Origin: a virus
DNA: 41,292 nt
IMG/VR virus record: IMGVR_UViG_3300035112_000010
Location: 1-41,292 of that record
Direction: 5' to 3' (one strand)
Under the pieces are notes generated by a model that had not been told where the DNA came from, did not search any database, and saw only the letters and a list, made by a program, of their open reading frames with translations. Positions within the stretch are counted from its first letter, which is position 1. Every line of letters starts with the position of its first letter. This document shows, piece after piece, positions 9,090 to 29,048 of the stretch. The position numbers and the translations under genes are program-made.

Positions 9090-10708
9090 TGGCCGATCCC
9101 TGGGCTGAATTCTCCCCTCAAGGCGCGGCGCCGCAGCAAGGCGCGGGCGCCGATCCATGGGCAGAATTCATCGCTCCGCAGATGTCTGCCGGCGAGAAAG
9201 CCATGGATGCCTATAAGGGGCTCGGCACGGGGGCCATCAAGGGCACGCTGGCGCTTGGCGGCATGGTCGGGGATCTGACTAACCTGGGCGCCAAGGGCAT
9301 CGAGAAGGCTTCCAATGCGGTCTCGGATGCCCTCGGGATTGAGCGCTATCAGCGGCCGGAAACGCCGTCGGCTCTCAATGCCATCCCGACCACTCAGAGC
9401 CTGACCGAAAGCCTCAAGAGCGCGCTTGGTGCGGATTTCTACCACCCCAAGTCGGATTACGGGAAGGCGGCCGAAAAGGTCGGCGAGTTCATCCCCGGCG
9501 CGGCTGCTACTGGTTTCACCGGTGGCGGATCGCTGGCCGGCAATGTTGCGCGCTATGCCGTGGCACCTGGCGCGGCGACCTTTGCGGCCGAGAAATACCT
9601 TCCGGAGAGCGATTACAAGCCGTGGCTGGTGGCCGGCGCTGGCGTGGGGGCGAGCCTCGCCAATCCGGCCCGTGTTGTCACTCCGCTAGAAGCCACACCA
9701 GCCAAACAGGCCGCTGTGGCGGCGCTGGAGCGCGAGGGTGTCACGTCGCTGACGGCCGGTCAGCGCACCGGCAACAAGTCTCTGCAGTATCTGGAGAGCG
9801 CCGCAAGCCATGCTCCGGGGGCTGGAGGTGGCGCGACCCGGATCGAGCACGAAGGACAGCGGCAATTCACGGAAGCCGCTCTGCGCCGCGCGGGGACGGC
9901 TGGAGAGGCCACGCCGGAAGTGCTAGCGGCCAACCAGCAGCGGCTCGGGCAGGCGTTCCAGGATCTATCAGCACGGAACACCTTGGTCCCGGATAACCAG
10001 TTCATCAACGACCTCACTGATGCCGTCAGCCGATACCGTAATGTTCCGGATTCGCAACAGCGTCAGATCGTCCAGGGCTACATCAATGACATCGTTCCGC
10101 ATGTGAATGCGGGCGGTATGCCAGGCACGCAGTATCAGCCCATGCGCTCGATGTTGTCGGCGGACGCGAAGTCGGTTGCCAATAGCGATCCTTATCTGTC
10201 TCGGGCTCTTGCCGGCATCCGGAATGCGCTCGACAGCGCCATGATGCGCTCAATCTCTCCGGAAGATCAGACGCTTTGGCAGCAAGCGCGGCGCGAATAC
10301 GGCGCGCAAAAGGTCATCGAGAAAGCCGCGAGCCGGGCCGGCGAGGCCACCGCCGAAGGCCAGATCACGCCGGCCAACCTGCGCAATACCGTGGCGGCCG
10401 AGAACCGCGGCGGCTATGCGCGGGGGGAAGGGCCATTCAATGAGCTCGCTCGATCGGGTGTCAGCGTCATGTCGCCGCTGCCGAACTCAGGCACAGCACA
10501 GCGCGCCAATGCCTTCCACCTCTTGAATGCGGGTCTGCTCGGCATTCCTCAGGCTCTGATGGGGCGCGCAGTGATGTCGCATCCGGTCCAGTCGTATCTG
10601 GCCAATCAGTTGATGGCCGGCGCGCTGCCGACCAATCCGGCCGCCCGCGATCTATTGATGATCGAAGCGCTTCAGCGATCCCAGCAGCCAGCGATAGAGG
10701 CGAAGTGA
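9089..10708 (+). CDS. Putative ejection protein, large
   Basis: 539 residues. The first 40 carry a repeated DPWAEF motif (residues 2-7 and 22-27). Glycine/alanine-rich segments around 45-65 (GLGTGAIKGTLALGGMVGDL) and 135-180 could associate with membrane, as expected of a protein that forms a channel during DNA entry. The remainder is helical. The ATG overlaps the previous TGA. Its last 57 bases overlap the minus-strand gene at 10652-10855 on the other strand. The role is inferred from position and character. Confidence 0.55.
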   Translation: MADPWAEFSPQGAAPQQGAGADPWAEFIAPQMSAGEKAMDAYKGLGTGAIKGTLALGGMVGDLTNLGAKGIEKASNAVSDALGIERYQRPETPSALNAIPTTQSLTESLKSALGADFYHPKSDYGKAAEKVGEFIPGAAATGFTGGGSLAGNVARYAVAPGAATFAAEKYLPESDYKPWLVAGAGVGASLANPARVVTPLEATPAKQAAVAALEREGVTSLTAGQRTGNKSLQYLESAASHAPGAGGGATRIEHEGQRQFTEAALRRAGTAGEATPEVLAANQQRLGQAFQDLSARNTLVPDNQFINDLTDAVSRYRNVPDSQQRQIVQGYINDIVPHVNAGGMPGTQYQPMRSMLSADAKSVANSDPYLSRALAGIRNALDSAMMRSISPEDQTLWQQARREYGAQKVIEKAASRAGEATAEGQITPANLRNTVAAENRGGYARGEGPFNELARSGVSVMSPLPNSGTAQRANAFHLLNAGLLGIPQALMGRAVMSHPVQSYLANQLMAGALPTNPAARDLLMIEALQRSQQPAIEAK

Positions 10709-10855
10709 TTCCATGATGATCGTGGTTGCCAGCAACGCAGCAAAGAAGGCCACCAGCGCGGCCACGTATCCGTTTGGGGTCCAGCCGTATTTGTTGTTGG
10801 AGCCGATGACACCGACCAGCACTGCAAACTGGACGACCTTCAAGAAGAACTGCAC
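10652..10855 (-). CDS. Small two-segment membrane protein on the strand opposite the tail genes
   Basis: 67 residues from a GTG at 10855, preceded by GAGG five bases upstream. Residues 2-20 (QFFLKVVQFAVLVGVIGSN) and about 30-50 (VAALVAFFAALLATTIIMES) form two likely membrane helices, then a basic tail (RLYRWLLGSLKRFDHQ). It is minus-strand between two plus-strand virion genes and shares 57 bases with the end of 9089-10708. The protein character is too membrane-like to be an antisense shadow. A moron-like or superinfection role is speculation. Compare 12275-12394. Confidence 0.6.
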   Translation of the reverse strand: MQFFLKVVQFAVLVGVIGSNNKYGWTPNGYVAALVAFFAALLATTIIMESLRLYRWLLGSLKRFDHQ

Positions 10856-10866
10856 GGGGGCCTCAC

Positions 10867-12270
10867 ATGCCGTTTAACGGCTCTGGCACGTTTACCATCG
10901 TCAATACCTTCGTGCCCAACACCACGATTCTTTCGGCTGCGGTCAACCAGAACTTCACCGACATCGCCACCGGCTTGTCCGACTGCCTGACCCGTGACGG
11001 CCAGGCAGGAATGTCCGCCGTATTCAAGGCCGTCTCTGGGTCTGTCTCGGCTCCCGGCATTTCGTTCAATTCCGATGCTACGGCAGGTCTCTATCTCAGT
11101 TCAACCGGGATTGTCGGGCTTGTCGCCAAGTCACTCGGTCTTCTAGTCAATTCCGCGATCTATCAGGCGACCTCGGCCACCGTGCAGGCCGGCGGTTCCG
11201 GCTATGCTGTCGGCGACACCATCACGGAAACCGGTGGAACGGCGATTTCGAACGCCGTTTTCACGGTCGCGACGCTGAGCGGATCGGCGGTTGCGACCGT
11301 GACCGTTGGCTATCCTGGTAACTACACGGTGGTTCCGTCCAACCCTGTCAGTCAAGGCTCGACTTCCGGCCTCGGAACGGGCTGTACGCTCAACATCACC
11401 TTTGCCGCACAATTTGCGAGTTCCCTCGTGACCAACGAGGCCGGGGCATTGCCTTGGCAGCGGCTCGGATCGTCGTCCTTTGTCTCGGGGCTGATGGCGC
11501 TTGCCAATGGCAAGGATTTTGTGACCGGTCTCGGCGCCTCCAACGTCATCTCCGCGATTGGTCTTTCCGCGCCGCCTCCTGGCGCATCGTTCAAGAATCT
11601 CGTCATCAAGGTTGCCACCACCACCACGGCGACAGTCGCGGCTGATTACGTTGTCGTGACCAACGGTACCGCCTATCAGACGCTGGCGTTCAGCTCGACG
11701 ATCAATTTTGCCACAACAGGCGCGAATGCTCTTGATACCGGATCAATCGCCACATCGACTTGGTATGCAATTTGGGTGATTGCCAAGCCAGATGGCACCA
11801 CGGCCGGTCTTGCATCGACCTCGGCCACGTCTCCCACAATGCCAAGCGGCTACACCTACAAGGCCCGCGTTGGTTGGGTGCGTTCCTCATCCAGCGTTGC
11901 GCAGCTCTATGGCACCTGGCAGTTCGGACGACGGGCACAATATGTTCTTGGCCTCGGTGCGCTCTCGGCTATGCCGCAGATGATCAACGCGGGCAGCGCG
12001 ACGTATGCATCGGCCTCTGTGTCCAATTTCGTCCCGACTACGGCAAGCGAAATCTACTTCACAGCCGCCAATGCGACGGTAAGTGCGTTCAACGCAATTG
12101 CGCCGAATAATGGATATGCCACCACCCTTAGCACAACGAGCCCGCCTCCATTCGGTGGTGAGACTCGGCAAATCTCCGGAACCTTCGTGCTGGAAAGCAC
12201 GAACGTCTGGTACGTCAGTTCGTCCGGAACGCTCGTCGCTTTCTGCAACGGCTGGGTGGACAACCTATGA
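10867..12270 (+). CDS. Tail fibre protein
   Basis: 467 residues. It opens PFNGSGTFTIVNTFVPNTTI, a start shared by many podoviral and siphoviral tail fibres of proteobacterial phages. Then follow alternating beta-prone T/S/G/A/V stretches, including SATVQAGGSGYAVGDTITET and a late hydrophobic-polar repeat. It follows the ejection proteins and precedes the lysis genes, as in many P22/T7-like maps. It is flanked on both sides by small minus-strand membrane genes. Receptor unknown. Confidence 0.75.
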   Translation: MPFNGSGTFTIVNTFVPNTTILSAAVNQNFTDIATGLSDCLTRDGQAGMSAVFKAVSGSVSAPGISFNSDATAGLYLSSTGIVGLVAKSLGLLVNSAIYQATSATVQAGGSGYAVGDTITETGGTAISNAVFTVATLSGSAVATVTVGYPGNYTVVPSNPVSQGSTSGLGTGCTLNITFAAQFASSLVTNEAGALPWQRLGSSSFVSGLMALANGKDFVTGLGASNVISAIGLSAPPPGASFKNLVIKVATTTTATVAADYVVVTNGTAYQTLAFSSTINFATTGANALDTGSIATSTWYAIWVIAKPDGTTAGLASTSATSPTMPSGYTYKARVGWVRSSSSVAQLYGTWQFGRRAQYVLGLGALSAMPQMINAGSATYASASVSNFVPTTASEIYFTAANATVSAFNAIAPNNGYATTLSTTSPPPFGGETRQISGTFVLESTNVWYVSSSGTLVAFCNGWVDNL

Positions 12271-16663: not shown

Positions 16664-16815
16664 GGGTCTCTATTCCTCAGTTTTCCAGAATATGCGAGCG
16701 ATCTCAAAGATGGGGTAGCTTTCTCAGAGCCCTCCCTAATCGTCTAACTTGCTGTTATTCTTGCTATTTTTGGAGATTTGGAAAACCTGAGCCCTCCCGT
16801 TTTCCAAATCCTGTT
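16620..16815. other. Candidate attP: repeat cluster downstream of the integrase
   Basis: Three copies of GTTTTCCAAATC: 16628-16639 and 16799-16810 on the plus strand and 16775-16786 inverted. A related GTTTTCCAGAAT lies at 16680. GAGCCCTCCC occurs twice, at 16727-16736 and 16789-16798. The pair at 16775/16799 forms a 12-bp inverted repeat with a 12-base spacer, inside the last codons of the integrase. Integrase arm and core sites commonly cluster just past the integrase gene. Inferred from repeats and position; no core exchange sequence is proven. Confidence 0.5.
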
Positions 16816-17890
16816 CTGTTCCCGTTCCATTGCGGGCGAAAAACACCTCAATGATCCGTTGCTCTTGCTCGACGTGACGAGTGTAGTGCGCGCCCATCCG
16901 GGCGTCCCGATCGCCCAAGGCCGCCGCCACCTGGCTGTCATTGGCGCCGGTCACGCGCTTGATCTCGGCAGCGAACGAAACACGCAGCCCATGCAAGGTC
17001 AGGCCGGAACCGATCAGCCCCTTGGCTTCCAACTTCGCAAGGAAATTGCTCGACTGTTTTTGCAACTGCTCAGCACTTACCCAAGGCTGCCCGTTATAGC
17101 GCAGCGCGATCGGACCTTCAGTCACGCGAACCTTGAGAGAGGCAAGGAAACGTTGCAGCTCGGGCGAGGCCGGCAGCCAGTGCTGTTCGCTGTTCTTCTT
17201 GTGCGTCGTCCTGAAGCACTTTCCAAAGCGCTGATCGGCCTGATAGTTGGACCACTGGACAGCGACAATGCTTTGGCTGCGGTAGCCTAGATGGCGGGCG
17301 AGCATATAGGCCGTTCGCAGGTGCAGCGGAGCGCGAGCCATCGCGGCTTCCCATTCCGCAGGCATCCACTCGCGGTTCGCGTTGGGATCTGATTTTTGCG
17401 TCCGGTCCATCCCAGCCGCCGGATTCGCCGGCATCCATCCGCGCTTGACCGCCTCACCGAACATCGAGGCCAGCGCTGTCACCATCTTGTCGGCAAATGC
17501 TGGCCACTTGTCGGCGACGCAGCGATCTCGCACTGCATAGAGATCGGCCTGTGTGATGCCGGCCAGCGGGAAATCATACTCTGGCTCAAGATAGCCCAGT
17601 CGATCGGCGTATTCGGTTCTGGTCGTCTCGCTGAGGCTGGCGAACTTCGGACACTGCGCGGGGTCAGTAAACCATGCCACTAGCCAGCCTAGGGAGCGCT
17701 CTGGATATGCCATGCGTTTGCGGGCGCCGTTGTATAGCCCGATGATATCTGGCTCAGCCAGACGCTTCACGAGGGCCGCGCGCTCGCCTTTGAAGCCGCG
17801 CAATAGCACCGCGCCGTCTGAACGGCGGTAGACGTAATATTTGCCCTTGGCGCGGGCGATCTTCAGCCCTTTAAGCGGCACCTTGACCAC
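16736..17890 (-). CDS. int: Tyrosine integrase
   Basis: 384 residues from GTG 17890, chosen because GGGGAG lies seven bases upstream and it minimises overlap with the gene at 17871-18080; an in-frame upstream ATG at 17971 is less likely. Catalytic residues visible: R204 (LGYRSQS), a lysine near 231, H300-x-x-R303 (LTLHGLRVSF), and the nucleophile Y336 (GAHYTRH). The usual LGH histidine is an aspartate (LGD, 327). The N-terminal part (8-50) is a small DNA-binding domain. It would integrate and help excise the genome. Confidence 0.92.
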   Translation of the reverse strand: MVKVPLKGLKIARAKGKYYVYRRSDGAVLLRGFKGERAALVKRLAEPDIIGLYNGARKRMAYPERSLGWLVAWFTDPAQCPKFASLSETTRTEYADRLGYLEPEYDFPLAGITQADLYAVRDRCVADKWPAFADKMVTALASMFGEAVKRGWMPANPAAGMDRTQKSDPNANREWMPAEWEAAMARAPLHLRTAYMLARHLGYRSQSIVAVQWSNYQADQRFGKCFRTTHKKNSEQHWLPASPELQRFLASLKVRVTEGPIALRYNGQPWVSAEQLQKQSSNFLAKLEAKGLIGSGLTLHGLRVSFAAEIKRVTGANDSQVAAALGDRDARMGAHYTRHVEQEQRIIEVFFARNGTGTEQDLENGRAQVFQISKNSKNNSKLDD

Positions 17891-18080
17891 CGAGCTTCTC
17901 CCCGAATTTGCGGGGCAATGGTTGCGCATTTTCCGGAACCAGGGAAGACACTTCCACGGGCTTGTCACCAACGATCAAGGTGCCGTCAGTCCTGACCCCG
18001 ATCACGAAGCGGCCAGCCTGTTCCACGCCTTTGATGGCGCGAGCGAGGGATGCTGCAGTGAAGGGGATGTGGCGCGTCAT
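17871..18080 (-). CDS. Small protein upstream of the integrase, possible excisionase
   Basis: 69 residues: MTRHIPFTAASLARAIKGVE, then AGRFVIGVRTDGTLIVG. GAGG precedes the ATG. It overlaps the start of int by 20 bases, so the two are co-transcribed. Helical N-terminus followed by beta strands, a layout seen in small regulatory DNA-binding proteins. A role in directionality of recombination is inferred from position only. Confidence 0.55.
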   Translation of the reverse strand: MTRHIPFTAASLARAIKGVEQAGRFVIGVRTDGTLIVGDKPVEVSSLVPENAQPLPRKFGEKLGGQGAA

Positions 18081-24805: not shown

Positions 24806-25059
24806 CTGGCCATCTCCTCTTGCACGCGCCCCATGGTCTCGGCGAACTCCTCTGGGCTCGGCCGGCGCTCGGCGAACTGCCGTAGCAGCGAGTCCATGCG
24901 GTCATATGCCGATGCGGTCGCGTCAATCTTCGCGCCGGCTGCCATCGTGCGAGCGTACTGCTCGATCAGATCGGCGCCGTCCTGCAGGTCGATCGTCTTG
25001 ACCAGCACGGCGATCTCGATGGCGGTGGGGATCTTGGCGGGGGTGAGGAGTTCACGCAT
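24802..25059 (-). CDS. Small helical protein, unknown
   Basis: 85 residues starting MRELLTPAKIPTAIEIAVLV, then helices with charged patches (ARTMAAGAKIDATASAYDRM). It follows the first gene after the left promoter. No family recognised. Confidence 0.5.
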   Translation of the reverse strand: MRELLTPAKIPTAIEIAVLVKTIDLQDGADLIEQYARTMAAGAKIDATASAYDRMDSLLRQFAERRPSPEEFAETMGRVQEEMAR

Positions 25060-25357
25060 GGGCGAGTTCCTCCTCGATCGCGTTGTTCACGGCATCCTGC
25101 ACGCGCGGGCGCCATTCATCATCGAGGCGATCGAAGATCATGGAGTGAAGCGGCGTGCCGCGATCGACCATCACAACGCGCGGCAGCCATCCGCCCGATG
25201 GCGCCTTGGCATATCCTTCAAGGTAGATTTCGGAGATGCCCCACTGGCCGTCAGGCCAGTAGTTGAGGAGGGCGGACCCATTTACCAGGCCGGCATCAAT
25301 GCCGCCGGTGACGAGGAGAGGAAGTTCCTCGAACTTGTAATCGAGCTGGCGAGCCAT
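25052..25357 (-). CDS. First gene of the left early operon, unknown
   Basis: 101 residues: MARQLDYKFEELPLLVTGGI onward, with aromatic strand-like segments (YWPDGQWGISEIYLEGYAKA) and a helical end (NNAIEEELAHA). AGGAG lies eight bases before the ATG. About 25 bases of untranslated leader separate it from the left promoter. Role unknown; as the first early gene it may be a regulator. Confidence 0.5.
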   Translation of the reverse strand: MARQLDYKFEELPLLVTGGIDAGLVNGSALLNYWPDGQWGISEIYLEGYAKAPSGGWLPRVVMVDRGTPLHSMIFDRLDDEWRPRVQDAVNNAIEEELAHA

Positions 25358-25381
25358 GGCGATCTCCTGTTCTGGAGACCA

Positions 25382-25424
25382 CCTTAAGGACAGTCGGTCC
25401 TAGGTGTCAAGGACTATTTGTCCT
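25382..25424 (-). promoter_or_regulatory. Left promoter with operators O1 and O2
   Basis: Read on the minus strand: -35 TTGACA at 25405-25410 and -10 TTAAGG at 25382-25387, spacer 17. Operator O1 (AGGACAGTCGGTCCT, 25387-25401) occupies the spacer. Operator O2 (AGGACTATTTGTCCT, 25410-25424) overlaps the far end of the -35. Centres are 23 bp apart. Bound repressor would block polymerase. Sites seen; binding inferred. Confidence 0.65.
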
Positions 25425-25439
25425 AAGAGCCAATATTTT

Positions 25440-25760
25440 TTAGGCGGCGTTTTTGGATCGCCTTCGAACGCGCGGCTTTGGTGCTGGCTCGATATCTGGC
25501 GTGATCTCAGGAATTGAGGCGACTTTCATGCGCCCTTGGCCGGTCATGAGCCATTCCATGTCAATCCTGGCGATGAGACAGAACCTGCGGACGAGATGGT
25601 GCGGGAGTAAGCTGCGGCCCTCGTACTGCTTATATTTATCCTGAGGCATGCCCAAAGCCTCGGCCATTTGCCATTGCTTCCAGCCAAGCGCCACGCGCGC
25701 TTGGGCGACACGGGCCATAAACGCCTGCTTATATTCAGTTTCTGTCTCTGAGTCCGCCAT
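25440..25760 (-). CDS. CI-like repressor, short, no autocleavage domain
   Basis: 106 residues from ATG 25760. A XRE-type helix-turn-helix spans about 16-60 (ARVALGWKQWQMAEALGMPQ, then DKYKQYEGRS). The C-terminus is short and basic (KPRVRRRSKNAA). There is no LexA-type Ser-Lys protease domain, so induction would not go by RecA cleavage. The gene is divergent from Cro and its start is next to operator O3, giving likely self-control. An upstream in-frame extension into the switch region is not credible. Confidence 0.8.
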   Translation of the reverse strand: MADSETETEYKQAFMARVAQARVALGWKQWQMAEALGMPQDKYKQYEGRSLLPHHLVRRFCLIARIDMEWLMTGQGRMKVASIPEITPDIEPAPKPRVRRRSKNAA

Positions 25761-25761
25761 A

Positions 25762-25806
25762 CGGACAGTGTGTCCTAATGATAATTCACGGTCCAAGGAC
25801 ACTTTG
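25762..25806 (-). promoter_or_regulatory. Operator O3 and candidate repressor promoter
   Basis: O3 (CGGACAGTGTGTCCT, 25762-25776) sits immediately upstream of the repressor ATG. On the minus strand TATCAT (25778-25783) is a good -10 and CAAAGT (25801-25806) a poor -35, as expected of a promoter that needs an activator. A degenerate operator half-site (AGGACACTTTGGGCT, 25796-25810) lies over that -35. Inferred: repressor helps or blocks its own promoter according to which site is filled. Confidence 0.5.
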
Positions 25807-25809
25807 GGC

Positions 25810-25838
25810 TTGTTTTTAAGGACAGGCTGTCCTATGCT
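25810..25838 (+). promoter_or_regulatory. Right promoter with operator O5
   Basis: -35 TTGTTT at 25810-25815, -10 TATGCT at 25833-25838, spacer 17. Operator O5 (AGGACAGGCTGTCCT, 25819-25833) begins three bases after the -35 and its last T is the first T of the -10. This is the same phase as operator O1 in the left promoter. The -10 ends only seven bases before the Cro ATG (25846), so the transcript may be leaderless. Confidence 0.65.
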
Positions 25839-25845
25839 CTGAGGC

Positions 25846-26112
25846 ATGACGCAAATTACTTCGTTCAGGTCGATCGTTGAGCTTTGGGGCCCAAAGGACG
25901 CGCATGGAGCGCGCCTGGCGATGGGCTCCGAGATCGGAGCATCAGCCGGACTTGTAACCAAATGGTGGCAGCGGGACTGGATTCCGCCTGAGTGGTGGTC
26001 TGCTGTGCTGTCAACGGAGAAATCCCGCGACGCTGGAGTGACAGCCGATCTCCTTGCGCGCTTGGCCGCCCGTCGCACTTTCACAGCAGACGCCTGTGAG
26101 GCGAGCCAATGA
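25846..26112 (+). CDS. Cro-like regulator (short HTH)
   Basis: 88 residues: MTQITSFRSIVELWGPKDAH onward. SEIGASAGLVTKWWQRDWIP, followed by PEWW, is a helix-turn-helix like those of carph-isopro/YdaS-type Cro proteins. It is the first plus-strand gene after the right promoter, divergent from the repressor. GAGG just before the ATG is too close to be a normal site, agreeing with a leaderless start. It should compete with the repressor for AGGAC-N5-GTCCT operators. Confidence 0.7.
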   Translation: MTQITSFRSIVELWGPKDAHGARLAMGSEIGASAGLVTKWWQRDWIPPEWWSAVLSTEKSRDAGVTADLLARLAARRTFTADACEASQ

Positions 26113-26473
26113 GCTCGCCCATTCCAAATGACGCTCATAAAAATTGCCCCCGTCGGGCCCCGGATTTTGCGCGCGGCTGCTCCGCGTCTGTTCCTTCGCT
26201 CTTGGCCGTGAGCACTCTTTGGGATCGCGCTCACGACGGGGAGCATCCAACCACAGCGCGCAGGTTTCTGTCACGAAGAATTCGCCGTTCAGACACAATC
26301 GTGAAAGCGGTGTGTGTCTTTCGCGCATCCTCCGGTAGTGCATCGGCAACCGGAAATATAGCGCGACATTCCGTAAAGATACGGTCAGCTCGACTGACAG
26401 ATGATTCAGTGAAATCGATTGCGGTGTCTCAGTCTGGGACATGTGTTTGTCCTGTGCATGTAGGGGTGCGTTC
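26113..26473. other. Weakly coding stretch between Cro and the next gene
   Basis: About 360 bases without a well-supported gene. A plus-strand frame (26109-26744, ATG overlapping the Cro stop) and a minus-strand frame (26011-26443, with AGGA seven bases before its ATG) both stay open, but neither shows the G/C-rich third positions or protein-like composition of the neighbours. A palindrome, GTCAG-CTCGA-CTGAC, lies near 26378. It may hold regulatory sites or a degenerate gene. Confidence 0.4.
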
Positions 26474-26764
26474 ATGCGTTCAGTATCGGGGGCGCAGCAC
26501 GCGCCGGCTATCGAGATCGACCGACAGGCAAGTCGCGAGGACGACAGATTTGTCGGCGATGCGCTCGCAGGGATCTGCAAGCTCATCCTTTGGCCTGAGA
26601 ATACAGCTGCTTACCTCGCGGCCGCTGCGAAGTGCAGCACGCGTCAGGCCGAGCGCTTCCTTGGCGGGCACTGTGAATGGTCCGGCGCGGCGCAAGCCGC
26701 CGTTATCACCGAAGTTCTCAATCGTCGCGGCATGCGGAACGTGAAGATCGTTCCGCGCCGCTGA
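26474..26764 (+). CDS. Helix-turn-helix-like small protein (CII-like position)
   Basis: 96 residues from ATG 26474, with AGGGG seven bases upstream; a longer upstream ATG exists without a site. WPENTAAYLAAAAKCSTRQA, then ERFLGGHCEWSGAAQAAVIT forms the helix-turn-helix: A..L...A.CS.R.AERFL. Such proteins follow cro in many alphaproteobacterial phages. A CII-like role is inferred from position. Confidence 0.6.
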   Translation: MRSVSGAQHAPAIEIDRQASREDDRFVGDALAGICKLILWPENTAAYLAAAAKCSTRQAERFLGGHCEWSGAAQAAVITEVLNRRGMRNVKIVPRR

Positions 26765-28607: not shown

Positions 28608-28788
28608 TGAAGTCAAGAGGTCGACGTTGGCCACGCTCAATGAGATTGCGGTCGGTGAGGCCGAGTTTAAGGCGCGGCATAGCATCGATGTCCGCGACGA
28701 AGACGAGTGGATGCAACTGCGTGACATCGTGGCGCGGATCGAGCGCAAGCTGATGGCGAAGCTGCCAGCAAAGGATGCTGCCGAATGA
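28597..28788 (+). CDS. Small acidic helical protein
   Basis: 63 residues from ATG 28597 (GGGAG eight bases upstream). MSCDEVKRSTLATLNEIAVG, then EAEFKARHSIDVRDEDEWMQ. Overlaps the helicase by 11 bases and the LuxR-type gene by four. No family recognised; may be a helicase partner. Confidence 0.5.
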   Translation: MSCDEVKRSTLATLNEIAVGEAEFKARHSIDVRDEDEWMQLRDIVARIERKLMAKLPAKDAAE

Positions 28789-29048
28789 CTCCGCTGACGC
28801 CACGAGAGCGCGAGGTATGCGAACTGCTCTGCCTCGGGAAGGTCAATAAGGAAATTGCGACCGAACTCGGGATTTCCTCCCGTACCGTCGAAGATCATCG
28901 CGCGATCATCCTGCGCAAGTGCGATGTGCGCAACGTGGTCGAGTTGGTCCGCGTCGTCTACGGGCTCAAGGAATTTGGTCCGACTGCCAGTCCATCAATC
29001 ACACCCGAGCGGGGGCTCGAAGATGCCGTTTCAAACGCACAATCCTAG
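28785..29048 (+). CDS. LuxR/FixJ-type DNA-binding regulator
   Basis: 87 residues. PLTPREREVCELLCLGKVNK, then EIATELGISSRTVEDHRAII is the canonical LuxR helix-turn-helix (T.RE.EVL.L...G..NKeIA..L.is..TVe.Hr..i..K). No receiver domain, only the output domain with a short tail. Its gene overlaps GcrA by 26 bases. Probably a phage transcription regulator; target unknown. Confidence 0.9.
   Translation: MTPLTPREREVCELLCLGKVNKEIATELGISSRTVEDHRAIILRKCDVRNVVELVRVVYGLKEFGPTASPSITPERGLEDAVSNAQS

Follow-up and report, generated by a model that had tools for sequence, protein, structure and literature searches.

A probable lambda-like two-operator immunity region with a short repressor lacking a cleavage domain in a temperate phage

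In phage lambda, an inner operator lies between the -35 and -10 elements of an early promoter and a second operator at the -35, OR2 lies at about -42/-43 of the repressor promoter PRM, and OR3 lies on PRM itself; the lambda repressor mRNA is leaderless. CI proteins of the PY54 type are related to that of lambda and are not 106-residue repressors of the kind described here. The closest characterised system to the present locus is PaaR2/YdaS of prophage CP-933P in E. coli O157:H7. PaaR2 is a short CI-like repressor that has no autocleavage peptidase and does not react to mitomycin C; experiments showed that it activates PRM at a low level and that its mRNA is leaderless (PMC8630535). In PY54, both cI and cro are expressed from leaderless mRNAs that start at the AUG, as determined by RACE (PMC4488713). 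The Gifsy repressors of Salmonella are likewise short (136 aa) and remain uncleaved on induction, which involves LexA-controlled antirepressors (PMC3121763). In T4, long upstream transcripts hide the Shine-Dalgarno sequence of gene e, and a promoter inside the 5' arm of the fold gives RNA without it (PMC3014915).

We analyzed a 41,292-nucleotide stretch of viral DNA (IMG/VR record IMGVR_UViG_3300035112_000010), hereafter the window, from a soil-bacterium phage with a relative in Bradyrhizobium. It probably contains the immunity region through which this temperate phage chooses between lysis and lysogeny, organized as a lambda-like switch with two operators on each side. A tyrosine integrase gene supports the temperate life style. 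The relevant features are given below; counts refer to the 29 non-redundant loci compared later in the text.

16736-17971, minus strand: tyrosine integrase (phrog_1, 1.6e-26; PF00589, 1.3e-6)
25052-25357, minus strand: first gene of the leftward operon, 101 aa
25358-25383, minus strand: fold-back inverted repeat, GGTGGTCTCC-AGAACA-GGAGATCGCC, directly before the ATG at 25357
25382-25410, minus strand: predicted promoter PL, TTGACA (25410-25405), 17-base spacer, TTAAGG (25387-25382); -35 TTGAC in 27/29 loci
25387-25401: operator OL1, between the PL -35 and -10; exact palindrome, conserved
25410-25424: operator OL2, end base common to the PL -35; exact palindrome
25440-25760, minus strand: repressor gene, 106 aa, XRE/CI-type helix-turn-helix (HTH) and basic unstructured tail
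25762-25776: operator OR3, over the PRM -10 and start, 1 nt before the repressor ATG; one mismatch
25767-25795, minus strand: predicted promoter PRM, TGGACC, 17-base spacer, CACACT (-10 at 25772-25767), 6 nt before the repressor ATG
25796-25810: operator OR2, between the back-to-back PR and PRM -35 elements; two mismatches, one half degraded
25810-25838, plus strand: predicted promoter PR, TTGTTT (25810-25815), 17-base spacer, TATGCT (25833-25838); predicted start at the A of the cro ATG
25819-25833: operator OR1, between the PR -35 and -10; exact palindrome, perfect in nearly all loci
25846-26112, plus strand: Cro-like gene, 88 aa, YdaS/carph-isopro-like HTH; first gene of the rightward operon

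The window and CP-933P have in common a short repressor without peptidase, divergent PR and PRM promoters, several palindromic operators including degraded ones, and a PL with matching operators; the Cro is of the YdaS type in CP-933P and may be so in the window (PMC8630535). CP-933P differs in its operators (half-site GTTTAGTAA, 18 bp), the equal spacing of its sites, its host group, and the toxin-antitoxin pair in its repressor operon (PMC8630535). At the level of sequence, the likeness consists of the HTH and sub-threshold YdaS matches; PaaR2 is likened to the repressor by description. With lambda, the window shares inner and outer operators, OR2 at about -43, OR3 on PRM, and a repressor mRNA predicted to be leaderless. 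It differs from lambda in that the repressor has 106 rather than 237 residues and no C-terminal dimer/cleavage domain, OR3 is 34 bp from OR2, there are two left operators instead of three, and Cro is also predicted to be translated from a leaderless mRNA. The leaderless cI and cro mRNAs of PY54, N15, and phiKO2 match that prediction; PY54-type phages differ from the window in that their Cro binds one 16-bp site and their prophage is a linear plasmid (PMC4488713).

The two proteins encoded on either side of the right operators are small. An AlphaFold model of the repressor places HTH helices at residues 2-73, with pLDDT above 90 over residues 11-70 and about 60-70 in the tail; its best PDB matches are of the 434 repressor/Cro type. 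No S24 LexA-type autocleavage/oligomerisation domain was found in the repressor, whose 106 residues give HTH matches only and end in a disordered tail, and the protein thus does not have the C-terminal S24 domain that marks the lambda CI family. The relatives of the Cro-like protein match YdaS_toxin (PF15943) and carphisopro (NF046037) below the curated cut-offs; as a single-sequence query, the protein itself gave no matches. Further along the rightward region, the open reading frame at 26441-26764 (107 aa) occupies the cII/ydaT slot downstream of cro and is HTH-like by eye with no family match, and 28785-29048 encodes an 87-aa protein that consists of a LuxR-type GerE DNA-binding domain alone (PF00196, 4.9e-17).

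The operator consensus is a 15-bp sequence, AGGAC-N5-GTCCT, with three exact copies in the window (beginning at 25387, 25410, and 25819); OR3 (CGGACAGTGTGTCCT) has one mismatch and OR2 (AGGACACTTTGGGCT) has two. Reading the sequence confirmed the three perfect and one near-perfect operators of the original prediction, as well as its two promoters with 17-bp spacers in the same operator phase: on the left and on the right, the inner operator starts three bases past the -35, and the -10 begins with the T that closes this operator. The one-base overlap claimed between OL2 and the left -35 was found at base 25410; its counterpart on the right, base 25810, shared by OR2 and the right -35, was absent from that account. 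On both sides, the first T of the -35 is also the end base of the outer operator, and the pitch between the two operators is 23 bp in exact register. OR2 had been described as a degenerate half-site covering the -35 of the repressor promoter; it is instead a complete 15-bp operator with one degraded half, and it abuts the likely PRM -35 (TGGACC, 25795-25790). Since OR2 is a full operator in 23-bp register with OR1, the same two-operator module is present at the left and right promoters. The placement of O3, i.e., OR3, over the repressor start region holds and can be extended, given that the likely PRM -10 also falls within the site, whose end is separated from the repressor ATG by 1 nt. As in lambda-type switches, the operators lie between divergent repressor and Cro-like HTH genes, matching operators occur at a second early promoter past the repressor gene (across all 29 loci), and operators overlap promoter elements in a geometry from which exclusion of polymerase would be expected.

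We then scanned IMG/VR with a pattern independent of any protein, i.e., two AGGAC-N5-GTCCT sites 6-10 bases apart. Of the 30 contigs retrieved, 27 code for a repressor relative; a Cro-like relative is also encoded in 26, positioned opposite the repressor. Three matches (L030, L031, and L035) are unrelated. L030 carries tandem sites with the same 23-bp pitch (1045-1082, and 1888) beside a different putative repressor of 215 aa, possibly through convergence or operator exchange. In L031, ten GGACATATTGTCC-type palindromes lie inside one open reading frame (10871-11143) and represent a coding repeat unrelated to the switch. A search with the repressor as query found five relatives in IMG/VR, all with five sites in register. 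A prophage of Bradyrhizobium sp. Arg816 has the same layout and a repressor that is 77% identical; of 272 Bradyrhizobium genomes only one carried the tandem pair, so there is little to gain from sequenced isolates. No close relatives were found among deposited phages, and no paper on an AGGAC operator in rhizobial phages turned up in a literature search. Bradyrhizobium phage ppBjS10J-1, the best relative by portal protein, was rejected as a switch relative given its different switch without AGGAC sites; several CCTACC..GGTAGG-like sites surround two HTH genes at about 10230-10730 of this phage (L051).

Repressors of the 29 non-redundant loci are 29-80% identical to that of the window. The OL1-OL2 pitch is 23 bp in 25 loci and 24 bp in the other four, and the OR1-OR2 pitch is 23 bp in 25/29. 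The pattern search selected perfect OL pairs, so that their perfection in the loci it found carries no weight as evidence; no such selection applied to the OR sites. OR2 is imperfect in 28/29 loci, the exception being L028, which has a duplicated OR. Pitch, promoter phase, and an imperfect OR2 are kept across these loci. OR3 is found at the same place with at most two mismatches in 15 loci and is not recognizable in nine, which counts against the switch model. The center of OL2 is the same non-palindromic AAATA in 15/29 loci, a sequence that neither strand symmetry nor the half-sites require. In L004 and L013, about 240-430 bp are inserted between the repressor stop and OL2; these insertions, at the position of rex in lambda, are candidate lysogenic conversion genes.

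The promoters are supported by conserved position rather than consensus strength. A generic sigma-70 scan requiring 9/12 matches missed PL, PR, and PRM alike, and the weakness of PR and PL by consensus counts against the switch model. The cro ATG lies 11-13 nt past OR1 in 26/29 loci, so that the PR transcript would be essentially without a leader. The PRM -10 has the consensus CATAAT (A2 in 26, A4 in 22, and T6 in 25 of the 29 loci); its forms CATAAT, CATACT, and CACACT end 6 nt before the repressor ATG, also in loci that lost OR3, and an xxGACx -35 is found 17 bp upstream in 21-23 loci. A TATCAT box was considered as the PRM -10 and dropped, since it is not conserved in the way that the CATAAT/CACACT element 6 nt from the ATG is. 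The geometry of PR and PRM predicts leaderless mRNAs for both the repressor and Cro.

An inverted repeat at the left promoter may provide a further layer of control. Its 3' arm holds the Shine-Dalgarno sequence of the first left gene, and its 5' arm falls between the -10 of PL and the start predicted for this promoter, at about 25373. PL and PRM point in the same direction, and the 15 bp between the repressor stop and OL2 in the window leave no room for a terminator. Predicted folding gave a stable structure for the read-through RNA (z = -4.0) and an open one for RNA beginning at 25373; this gene start is the most stable among the 37 of the window. Anchored stems of at least 6 bp were found in 22/28 loci (null mean 3.3, maximum 9; shifted controls 1-2), and the held-out loci L052 and L055 have stems of 9-10 bp. 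These observations suggest that the fold-back may silence read-through RNA from the repressor promoter and so stop leaky lytic expression. T4 gene e is the best analogy; there the gene is a lysis gene behind a T4 late promoter, as opposed to a lambda-type PL operon for which the mechanism is solely predicted.

It is quite possible, at something short of an even chance, that the inverted repeat is instead the 5'-end hairpin of the normal PL transcript, acting in stability or constitutive Shine-Dalgarno masking, or that it arose from a CTCC discriminator and a GGAG Shine-Dalgarno, each constrained separately. The PL start that separates the hairpin from the read-through reading is itself a predicted position; standard spacing places it past the 5' arm, often in a CAT context. 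Pyrimidine-rich and purine-rich motifs also pair by themselves, such that arms swapped between loci still average 4.9 bp. However, own arms average 6.25 bp, none of 20,000 permutations reached the observed pairing, and the two arms covary (10 bp in L012 and L055). We did not find a stronger fold-back in loci where a terminator between the repressor and OL2 is missing, a link that simple insulation from read-through would predict, and for this reason the silencing function is one that we infer.

The weakness of OR2 bears on how the repressor gene would be controlled. The center of OR2 lies at about -43 of the predicted PRM start, a position compatible with the repressor activating its own promoter. 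A possible, if rather doubtful, alternative is two-way repression in which PRM fires unaided and OR2 is weak only to spare the flanking -35 elements. OR2 indeed shares or abuts bases of both -35 elements, and the PRM -10 (CATAAT type) is decent in many relatives. Yet OL2 overlaps the PL -35 in the same manner and is perfect, though the OL pair was selected as perfect by the search. Moreover, the OR2 defect is not confined to one half (the PR-side half has AGGCC in 11 of 29 loci, the PRM-side half the mirror GGCCT in five), which fits tuned affinity better than damage by one overlapping element.

It is improbable that the AGGAC sites serve mainly the YdaS-like Cro, with the 106-aa protein acting elsewhere or only as a partner: Cro relatives do adjoin the sites in 26 of the 30 pattern-found contigs, and both proteins bind overlapping sites in lambda and CP-933P (PMC8630535), but L077, with a related Cro and a 281-aa LexA-like repressor, has no AGGAC sites, whereas L010 keeps the repressor and the OL pair beside an unrelated divergent gene. 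The comparison of sequences indicates that the operators track the repressor rather than Cro, with the proviso that such loci are few. L052 and L055 have diverged recognition helices and altered operator end bases. An origin of the sites by chance or from a coding repeat was rejected on the basis of shuffles and of the IMG/VR pattern scan: none of 20,000 samples of the 600-bp region, drawn from a first-order Markov model, had any 5-N5-5 palindrome three times, and the composite left module had no matches in 100 shuffles of the whole window.

The 106-aa HTH-only protein, the divergent Cro-like gene, and the layout in 29 loci support the original prediction of a compact lambda-like switch whose short repressor has no autocleavage domain. 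The further claim in that prediction, that induction cannot take the classical route, is a consequence of the absent peptidase domain; PaaR2 (PMC8630535) and Gifsy (PMC3121763) are precedents, although no alternative route was found. Gifsy and the window are alike in having short repressors, uncleaved on induction in the former and without a cleavage domain in the latter, and a Gifsy-type antirepressor would be the obvious model. No candidate antirepressor gene was identified in the window, which also holds genes without an assigned function, and LexA-type GTTC-N7-GTTC boxes were not in excess (35 versus 29.7 expected).

We propose the following model for the switch. A dimer of the 106-residue repressor would recognize AGGAC-N5-GTCCT and, cooperatively as we infer, fill two operators 23 bp apart on each side, keeping polymerase off PL and PR. 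The weak OR2, filled beside OR1, would be in a position to promote synthesis of the leaderless repressor mRNA from PRM, and OR3 on the PRM -10 would shut this promoter at high repressor levels. The YdaS-like Cro, made from its own predicted leaderless mRNA, would be the lytic competitor. RNA from PRM that runs through the repressor gene into the left operon would fold back and hide the first ribosome-binding site, whereas RNA started at PL would lack the 5' arm and be translated. Cooperativity is left without account by a 106-aa protein with a disordered tail, which counts against the switch model and raises the question of how such a repressor, with no CI C-terminal domain, could switch cooperatively and respond to stress.

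We tentatively suggest, with somewhat less than even confidence, that these loci form a widespread and undescribed family of lambda-like switches in alphaproteobacterial phages, combining a minimal non-cleavable repressor, two identical two-operator modules, leaderless switch mRNAs, and a PL fold-back that silences the lytic operon in read-through RNA, instead of or beside a terminator. If it works as predicted, the fold-back would lock the lytic left operon a second time, at the level of RNA. The approximately 29 natural variants, which keep spacing, phase, and an imperfect OR2 while repressor identity drops to about 30-50%, offer a natural data set on which parts of a lambda-like switch are indispensable.
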